DNA from: Serratia sp. FDAARGOS_506
GTDB taxonomy: Bacteria > Pseudomonadota > Gammaproteobacteria > Enterobacterales > Enterobacteriaceae
Length of the DNA stretch: 64,000 bases
Direction of reading: 5' to 3'
Assembly: GCF_003812745.1 (NCBI RefSeq)
Contig: NZ_CP033831.1
Span: 1,178,001-1,242,000 of the forward strand
This document shows, one piece after another, positions 61,193-63,936 of this stretch (positions within the stretch are counted from its first letter, which is position 1; each line of letters opens with the position of its first letter). The position numbers were made by a program, and so were the translations under genes. The notes beneath the pieces were generated by a model. It worked only from the letters and a program-made list of their open reading frames with translations, searched no databases and was not told where the DNA came from.

Positions 61193-61304
61193 AAAAAAAA
61201 GCCAGCACCCGAGCTGGCTAAGTAAACACTGGAAGCAATGTGAGCAATGTCGTGCCTTCGCAGCGAGAGTATCAAGGGTTGATGCCCTCCCCGGAACGCA
61301 TCGC
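61193..61304 (-). ncRNA. ryhB: RyhB, iron-responsive small RNA
   Basis: Read on the minus strand, 61193-61250 ends CACGACATTGCTCACATTGC...TTCCAGTGTTTAC...TTAGCCAGC-loop-GCTGGCTTTTTTTT. This is the conserved RyhB core (pairing region and Hfq-binding Rho-independent terminator); the only gene neighbours are yhhW and yhhY, as in E. coli. A strong Fur box overlaps the promoter. The 5' part, about 50 bases between GCGATG and CACGAC, is longer than in E. coli (about 34), so the RNA should be near 105-112 nt. The exact start is a guess from the Fur box position. Confidence 0.94.
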
Positions 61305-63139: not shown

Positions 63140-63936
63140 GGCGCTGGCGCCTAATGCTGGTCAGTTAGCGTTTTTCTGAACGTATTTGTGCAGTTTTCGG
63201 TCGATAAAAGCGAGATGTCCCATGTGGCTCCTGCACCTCGACCGAGCCAGGGGCCGAAGGCGCGGCCCCTGGCAACCCGCGCCTTTGCCCTATCAGACGA
63301 TTGGCTTTGCCAACTTTACTCAGCCCATCCCTGGGCCTCGCCCCTTCGGGGCCGCTGCAAGCAGCGTTCAAATCTGCTCCAGGCAGATTTGTCCTCTCTC
63401 CGCCATAGCGCATTGAGGCCGGTTGCGACAGGCGTCCCTGCCTGTCTCACCTGAAACCGCCGTCCATGGCGGTTTCTCCTAATGCGCTATGCCTGCGTTC
63501 GGCGTCTTCAAGGGCGCCTTACACTTGTGCTCATCTCCAACTTCTCTTCTCTGCCATAACCTCATAAAGGACGGGTTGCCCGGTAGCCACCAGCTCGGGT
63601 GTTGACCTTTGGCGCGCATCACCGGCTGCCGAGCAAGACGGCATTGTCAGGGGCAACCGGCCAGGGAAGGCCGGTTGAGGCGAGACTAACAGGGACGTTT
63701 GTCGTAGCCGACCCGCCCGACAATGCAGACGCGGCGAGGGTATCCGCACAGCGGACAGACGGTGTTAAGCGAAGGCGCGGGTGGAGGGGCCGCGCCTTCG
63801 GCCCCTCCAATTGCCATTCATTGTAGTAACAGAGAAATTCTGGGCATTTACGGCAATTCATCCTGCACGCCACGTACAGAGACTGGATAAAAAAATGCCA
63901 GTCAGGCTTAAGTGACCAGCATTAGGCGCTGGCGCC
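63140..63936. mobile_element. Non-autonomous structured element with 12-bp target duplication
   Basis: The element runs 63152-63924 (773 bp). Its ends are TAATGCTGGTCAGTTA and, on the other strand, TAATGCTGGTCACTTA (15 of 16 identical). The flanking GGCGCTGGCGCC is repeated exactly on both sides (63140-63151 and 63925-63936), a 12-bp target duplication. Ends and duplication length resemble IS4-type elements, but no open frame over about 85 codons exists inside. Joining the flanks restores a perfect terminator stem AAGGGGCGC...GCGCCCCTT. The interior is a chain of strong stem-loops described under findings. Confidence 0.85.

Follow-up and report, generated by a model that had tools for sequence, protein, structure and literature searches.

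Locus and anatomy of the element

The window analysed here is a stretch of 64,000 nt from Serratia sp. FDAARGOS_506 (NZ_CP033831.1, positions 1,178,001-1,242,000), and all element coordinates given below are window positions. At 63152-63924 lies a 773-bp element that is a composite of three nested parts: a shell, an inner module and an optional 78-bp module. An exact 12-bp direct repeat, GGCGCTGGCGCC, brackets the element at 63140-63151 and 63925-63936, with terminal inverted repeats inside it. Elsewhere in the window, an RyhB sRNA gene occupies 61193-61259 on the minus strand (Rfam RF00057, 86.8 bits, cut-off 55). The features of the element and its borders are as follows:

63140-63151: 12-bp target duplication, left copy; it belongs to an interrupted terminator-like hairpin, AAAAAAGGGGCGCTGGCGCCCCTTAATC
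63152-63181 (+): left terminal inverted repeat (TAATGCTGGTCAGTTA...), resembling the ends of IS4-family insertion sequences (ISs) of the same genus
63246-63273: outer hairpin H1, with a stem of 11 bp, at the left edge of the inner module; an exact 22-bp inverted copy of H10
63316-63393 (-): optional 78-bp module, with a sub-threshold match to AaHKsRNA22 (RF02902) and four minus-strand hairpins, two of them with GGA loops (CTGGA, AGGGAT)
63404-63491 (-): left arm, TwoAYGGAY-like; closing stem CATAGCGCATT/AATGCGCTATG, which encloses a pair of hairpins whose hexaloops are AUGGAC and AGGGAC
63492-63640: centre between the arms, of lower conservation; genes can occupy the equivalent place in arm pairs of other genera
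63641-63726 (+): right arm, TwoAYGGAY-like; closing stem GCATTGTC/GACAATGC, which encloses a pair of hairpins whose hexaloops are AGGGAA and AGGGAC
63782-63809: outer hairpin H10, at the right edge of the inner module
63895-63924 (-): right terminal inverted repeat, which forms a terminator-like hairpin followed by a T-run, oriented for transcription arriving from the right (63923-63894, minus strand)
63925-63936: right copy of the target duplication, plus the remainder of the interrupted terminator-like hairpin

The original prediction described this locus as a mobile element without a protein gene, built from ten hairpins and two longer-range stems, and its anatomy holds in every part. The ten hairpins (63247-63272, 63301-63313, 63323-63336, 63340-63352, 63353-63366, 63369-63391, 63427-63446, 63453-63476, 63654-63677 and 63783-63808) are all present with perfect stems of 5-10 bp; for the one at 63353-63366, the sequence match gives a 6-bp stem closing a 2-base loop, and the fold a 5-bp stem closing a 4-base loop. 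Both long-range stems, 63404-63414/63481-63491 and 63641-63648/63719-63726, are exact. To this description we add an eleventh hairpin at 63684-63703 (GACTAAC AGGGAC GTTTGTC, one mismatch), which lies inside the second closed group, and the mirror arrangement of the two closed groups, referred to here as arms. At the outer edges, the 22-bp hairpins at 63249-63270 and 63785-63806 repeat one another exactly in inverted orientation.

The claim that such structure exceeds chance is borne out by two comparisons. Six perfect hairpins (stem ≥6, loop 3-8) occur in the element compared with 1.06 ± 0.99 in 200 dinucleotide shuffles, none of which reached six, and the whole element folds with z = -10.99 under RNA energies and z = -10.03 under DNA energies, with 0 of 20 shuffles folding equally well in each case. 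One terminator-like site was found in the element (63923-63894, minus strand), the shuffle mean being 1.0. Six ORFs of 72-88 aa lie inside the element, none with a Pfam or NCBIfam match, and the best kept of them is open in 19 of 36 other copies; with no family match and no frame generally kept open among copies, we reject a protein-coding element, in line with the prediction. A sigma70-type search returned no sigma70-like promoter in the element, centre included, and no Rfam family reached its gathering score within it.

An IS4-type shell found in terminator-like hairpins

Mobility had been predicted, and a search for further copies agrees with it. In its own genome, the element gave 40 BLAST matches, comprising six near-full copies, a further long copy that lacks the 78-bp part, a single left-hand piece, six short forms and fragments, while some part of it was matched in 29 of the 30 genus genomes (own included). 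We fetched 60 genus loci, in 51 of which both ends could be set; 34 of these two-ended copies carry a target duplication of 10-14 bp (≥75% match) and 17 carry none by this rule. When the empty sites of the 34 duplicated copies were rebuilt, they had by eye the look of rho-independent terminators, with A- and T-runs, and 31 of the 34 folded at -12 kcal/mol or better compared with 32% of 282 flank windows. Together, the copies and their duplications point to an element that moves, or has moved, within the genus.

The NCBIfam model transpos_IS4_1 matched over its cut-off in 2 of the 30 genus genomes, with no match to this IS4-family transposase model in the element's own genome. We inspected 13 IS4-family IS copies in the genus (5 of G002 and 8 of G025; L184, L185, L190, L192, L193, L195, L196 and L198-L203), all of which show 9-12 bp duplications and sit, by eye, at terminator-like hairpins. 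The G025 ISs have TAATGC ends like those of the element, and the G002 ISs have TAACACC ends. Because ends, duplications and terminator-like sites are shared with the IS4-family ISs of the genus, the shell is, judged by its sequence, a MITE of IS4 type, combining shared ends and a duplication of about one helical turn with the lack of a transposase. An IS4-family transposase would thus move the shell, inserting it into the top of terminator hairpins. The likeness to IS4-family ISs and MITEs extends to the ends, the duplication length and the choice of terminator-like palindromes as targets; unlike them, the window element bears a structured passenger, in which no likeness to the IS was noticed.

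That passenger is absent from the short forms. The six in the element's own genome keep only about 1-119 and 648-773 of the element, the shell (ends plus sub-terminal parts) amounting to ~235 bp in short copies. Judging by eye from the flanks, short forms in this genome occupy sites where other species carry the long form (L162/L121/L132; L013/L124; L018/L116/L122/L123), and the hairpin loop that remains in short forms occurs in either orientation. Since short forms differ in loop orientation and share sites with long forms, the inner module was probably lost (or gained) more than once, and the pattern suggests repeated loss. The long genus copies fetched are 620-850 bp in total length, which leaves no room for a gene between the arms in this genus. 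Because both strands of this DNA carry long open frames, gene orientation around the copies is uninformative.

Matches to plasmid records (170) and phage records (6) never span more than 80% of the element, and we reject a plasmid or phage element; the 30 plasmid matches listed and all 6 phage matches cover only about 165-251 of it.

The inner module is related to TwoAYGGAY RNAs

The inner module (63246-63809) comprises two arms, both reading outward, between the outer hairpins. In a 901-base Rfam search run in E-value mode, RF01731 (TwoAYGGAY) matched the left arm on the minus strand (34.1 bits, E 0.002) and the right arm on the plus strand (32.1 bits, E 0.006), both scores being below the RF01731 gathering score of 43. 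Across the genus, RF01731 was matched at E ≤ 0.01 in 14 of 30 genomes and over the cut-off in 0 of 30. In another genus of the same family (G126), arms over the cut-off are laid out outward between outer hairpins, as in the window.

We also built an arm model from 19 genus arms only, without Rfam, and searched 125,338 bases of other-genus loci with it. The model found 15 places at E ≤ 0.05, 13 of which coincide in part, and in strand, with RF01731 places (L089 and L183 represent a single place within overlapping loci, and the register of L089/L183 and of L090 is shifted by one hairpin). Of the two matches without an RF01731 overlap, L097 683-734 (+) pairs outward with an RF01731 place, and L181 792-850 has no explanation. 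The inner module also occurs free of the shell: relatives with 75-80% DNA identity and without matching ends are present in two other genera, G273 (L269-L272) and G205 (L273-L276), those of G205 being right arms only. No constant-length duplication was seen by eye around the inner module or arm pairs, whose outer limits are fuzzy. We noticed that a block like GTGTTGACCTTTAGCGCGCATC ahead of the right arm is strikingly conserved in the shell-free relatives (L269-L276), and it might serve as a signal, for instance as a promoter of a different type.

The arms thus resemble TwoAYGGAY in having two GGA-loop hairpins in a closed structure, in their homology to members and in matching on their outward strands, and arms over the gathering score occur in 9 of 119 family genomes, out of 12 with any RF01731 match. 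Unlike that family, the window arms score below the cut-off, have loops AUGGAC, AGGGAC and AGGGAA rather than AYGGAY alone, and form an inverted pair inside a mobile element. To our knowledge, no function has been demonstrated for the Rfam family TwoAYGGAY.

Compensating changes and constant loops

The original prediction proposed covariation among copies as its test, and compensating changes occur in the stems of the left and the right arm alike. In the genus alignment of 19 rows (17 distinct), both sides changed in 5 of 16 pairs of the two hairpins, and 96.3% of cells are paired compared with at most 45.9% when slid, the double changes being mostly one split between left and right arms. When arms from six genera were aligned (25 arm rows), both sides changed in 13 of 16 pairs, double-change cells numbered 98 compared with 27.7 ± 5.1 in shuffles, and 96.0% of cells were paired compared with 68.3% shuffled and at most 46.0% slid, with the caveat that cell counts are not independent because the copies are related. 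Together with the further copies, these changes support the predicted structured RNA or folded DNA.

The only invariant columns in the 25 rows are A.GGA.G, in both loops, and a C precedes the loop in 24 of 25 rows each. On this alignment, loop letters tolerate less change from genus to genus than stem letters do; the invariance is partly selected because the Rfam model behind the rows from G126, G206 and G214 already expects GGA loops and the search expression for the G273 and G205 right arms required GGA in the first loop; pentaloop rows were left out (A-GGA-C in G273 left arms, two G126 arms and one G193 arm). Within the genus, 71 distinct arms keep ANGGAX intact in 139 of 142 loops (39/39, 37/39, 32/32 and 31/32), and changes fall on A, G, G or A in 3 of 568 cells versus 12 of 284 for N and X.

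Mean column identity over 38 long copies is 0.958 and 0.980 in the arm cores, 0.841 and 0.850 in the transposon ends, 0.900 and 0.952 in the outer hairpins, 0.836 in the centre, 0.801 and 0.789 in the sub-terminal parts and 0.951 in the 78-bp module where present (occupancy 0.47); the closing stem of the left arm reaches only about 0.79. Selection on the ends only would predict the reverse pattern, and therefore a simple MITE without a passenger is disfavoured by arm conservation and covariation.

Loops of the CsrA type

The high-affinity CsrA/RsmE site is an ANGGAX hexaloop placed directly on a stem, with N and X variable, and a closing C-G pair is described for RsmZ stem-loops (excerpts of PMC4005645). 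TwoAYGGAY has previously been proposed as CsrA-binding, without mobile context, in the available part of PMC4333381. In the window, reading each arm outward gives the loops AUGGAC and AGGGAC (left arm) and AGGGAA and AGGGAC (right arm), each seated on a C-G pair, so that the ANGGAX hexaloops on stems which mark a CsrA/RsmA-binding RNA are present. The 78-bp module contributes AGGGAU, whose A-U can pair, and a weaker CUGGA. Among strong hairpins (stem ≥7, loop 4-8), loops of ANGGA type on either strand occur in 3 of 6 within the element versus 0 of 60 elsewhere in the 64-kb window. The genome itself has one CsrA gene match. Taken loop by loop, the sequence argues strongly for CsrA binding by the arms.

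Whether these loops would be accessible depends on the transcript. By equilibrium folding, transcripts that begin in the centre and run out of the element keep all four arm loops 0.99-1.00 unpaired. In a whole-element transcript, the arms pair with each other: the plus strand then hides R2 fully and R1 half, and the minus strand hides L2. Like Csr/Rsm RNAs (CsrB, RsmZ), the arms offer several ANGGAX hairpin loops per RNA, in pairs; unlike them, the window element yielded no sigma70-like promoter, and its copies are mobile and occupy many loci. CsrB, CsrC, RsmY and RsmZ gave no Rfam match in the element.

Arm pairs and their cargo in other genomes

RF01731 matches are present in 38 of 148 order-wide genomes (29 over cut-off), and in 20 of 24 genomes of Psychromonas (g19). 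We typed 197 RF01731 places among the best matches listed and counted neighbours within 6.5 kb. Among the matches listed, the 62 arm neighbours comprise 20 outward, 42 same-way and 0 inward; with one further outward pair, the count becomes 21 outward and 0 inward of 63. Arms also form tandem arrays, with spacings of ~577 bp in L084 and 427-612 bp in L182.

A gap of at least 600 bp separates the arms in 14 outward pairs, and in 9 of the 14 (L085, L098, L165-L170 and L242, mostly Psychromonas, with one in G145) an ORF inside matches PADLOC. The cargo comprises PDC-S49/KAP; Ppl-like proteins twice (weak PHP and SMC Pfam matches); an NsnA-like GmrSD_N beside a weak SIR2-like protein; PDC-S31 three times, two of them also matching Pfam DUF2971; PDC-M01AB; and PDC-M11AB with SLATT. 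No PADLOC match was found in pairs L164, L171, L243 (Bro-N), L244 and L285. Of the 26 cargo ORFs with 100 aa or more, 12 match PADLOC, as does 1 of 10 neighbouring genes outside the arms (a DEAD-box helicase); this is a lead and not proof, because many PADLOC models are themselves candidates.

At the Psychromonas cargo locus, the genes are ones that we take, from their sequence, to be nrdD and nrdG. The gap before nrdG holds a Ppl-like cassette in G167; in G105 it holds arms that bracket PDC-S31 cargo, and other genomes (e.g., L228-L231) have little or nothing between nrdD and nrdG. The gap before nrdG is a small cargo hotspot (L167, L168, L212-L232).

Interpretation and rival explanations

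We favour, with a probability of roughly 0.58, a composite non-autonomous element in which an IS4-type MITE carries an independent, conserved RNA module with outward paired CsrA sites. Because stems covary, A.GGA.G is invariant in both loops and the arms outconserve the transposon ends, the passenger most likely acts as an RNA that binds CsrA. The inner module would ride as a separate passenger inside the MITE shell. Each arm would be a closed two-hairpin RNA of the TwoAYGGAY kind, inverted in orientation and reading outward, and each arm hairpin would show an A-N-G-G-A-X hexaloop directly on a C-G pair, that is, a high-affinity CsrA/RsmA site; the optional 78-bp insert may add another such loop. 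Since the arms are paired outward, a transcript starting inside the element or in cargo, and then leaving, would gain a paired CsrA-binding tail in either direction. CsrA dimers could clamp two loops and alter the fate of the transcript, and many copies may titrate CsrA. From the evidence above we infer that the arms are a functional RNA, and we infer likewise their transcription, CsrA binding and an effect on the host.

Several observations count against the favoured reading. The arms are dispensable for the shell, as the short copies without arms indicate; no sigma70-like promoter was found in the element, and a whole-element transcript folds the arms onto each other; and the inverted layout is equally expected of DNA-level ends. 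The last point leads to the main rival, in which the arms would be the DNA ends of a second mobile element: sub-terminal inverted repeats that fold, single-stranded or as a cruciform, and are read by an unnamed enzyme, with the GGA loops as protein contacts in DNA. This account explains the geometry as well as the RNA reading does. Among the neighbours counted, arms are outward or tandem and never inward, as the ends of an element would be, and the two outer hairpins (63249-63270 and 63785-63806) are identical in inverted orientation; elsewhere genes sit between arms, and the Psychromonas stretch before nrdG has arm-bracketed cargo in some genomes and nothing in others; DNA energies, too, fold both arms as branched local structure. 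Yet it leaves unexplained why the loop letters that vary freely are those that the CsrA site, too, leaves free (N and X); by eye, neither the inner module nor the arm pairs showed a flanking duplication of constant length; the search, which covered IS4, found no enzyme; and arms also occur alone or in tandem. We therefore regard DNA ends as a rather unlikely account of the arms.

Two further accounts seem less probable again. The hairpins might be generic RNA stabilisers or terminators at gene 3' ends, a role reported for ERIC and proposed for YPAL, with GGA loops as a by-product of shared ancestry. The element does sit in terminator-like hairpins, its right end is itself terminator-like, and ERIC and YPAL, hairpin-forming enterobacterial repeats, are described as affecting mRNA stability (in the available part of PMC2229807), but generic stem-loops need no constant loop letters while their stems change with compensation, which makes this explanation improbable. 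The least probable, in our view, is that the element has no function and is a terminator-seeking MITE that has accumulated nested palindromic insertions; here the shell as an ordinary IS4-type MITE, the 78-bp module as an insert that probably also occurs in ERIC-like repeats and the short forms without an inner module are set against arm cores that outconserve the transposon ends in the 38 long copies and against compensating changes across genera.

A wider and distinctly more tentative reading, which we think is doubtful, goes further: outward CsrA-binding arm pairs could be a general gamma-proteobacterial mobile-element device that brackets accessory (often anti-phage) genes, so that every leaving transcript would be handed to host CsrA. 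The pair would then be a swappable cassette, and the window would hold its cargo-free form in a terminator-seeking IS4-type MITE.

The proposal that TwoAYGGAY binds CsrA is already known, while mobility, outward pairing and gene bracketing of TwoAYGGAY were not found in the available portions of the open-access literature searched; TwoAYGGAY or CsrA sites on a MITE were likewise not found in those portions. As a mobile inverted-pair module, TwoAYGGAY would tie an Rfam family to accessory-gene cassettes and transposons. Because its loops agree one by one with the solved CsrA/RsmE site, it can be tested directly whether mobile DNA carries decoys or tags for a global regulator of the host; if true, this would explain why some enterobacterial intergenic repeats retain GGA loops.

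The 78-bp module and ERIC-like repeats

The 78-bp module matches RF02902 (AaHKsRNA22) over its full length (1-101) with 38.4 bits, below the gathering score of 39.8. It lies in the left half of the window element, is absent from some copies and is inverted in the right half of others. The module, or part of it, is matched in 670 of 5426 E. coli genomes and in 170 plasmid records, 168 of which are from Salmonella. Among family genomes, 36 of 119 (own included) match the element, and most of the matches listed cover about 165-250 only.

ERIC carries inserts of about the size of this module. Using what we take to be the ERIC-PCR primer sequences, we found both primers, in opposite sense and with ≤7 mismatches, close by at 12 of 19 loci, at least one of which (L037) is without the module. 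The module probably lies inside ERIC-like repeats, resembling ERIC (IRU/RU-1) with an internal insertion; unlike in ERIC, the window module sits in an IS4-type MITE beside TwoAYGGAY-type arms. In 29 distinct module copies, GGA is kept in the first hairpin loop in 28 and in the last in 25. We also observed that the E. coli K-12 rrnB T1-T2 spacer (L256) resembles the module over its first hairpins, with CGGGAG and AGGA loops that are possible CsrA sites downstream of 5S rRNA.
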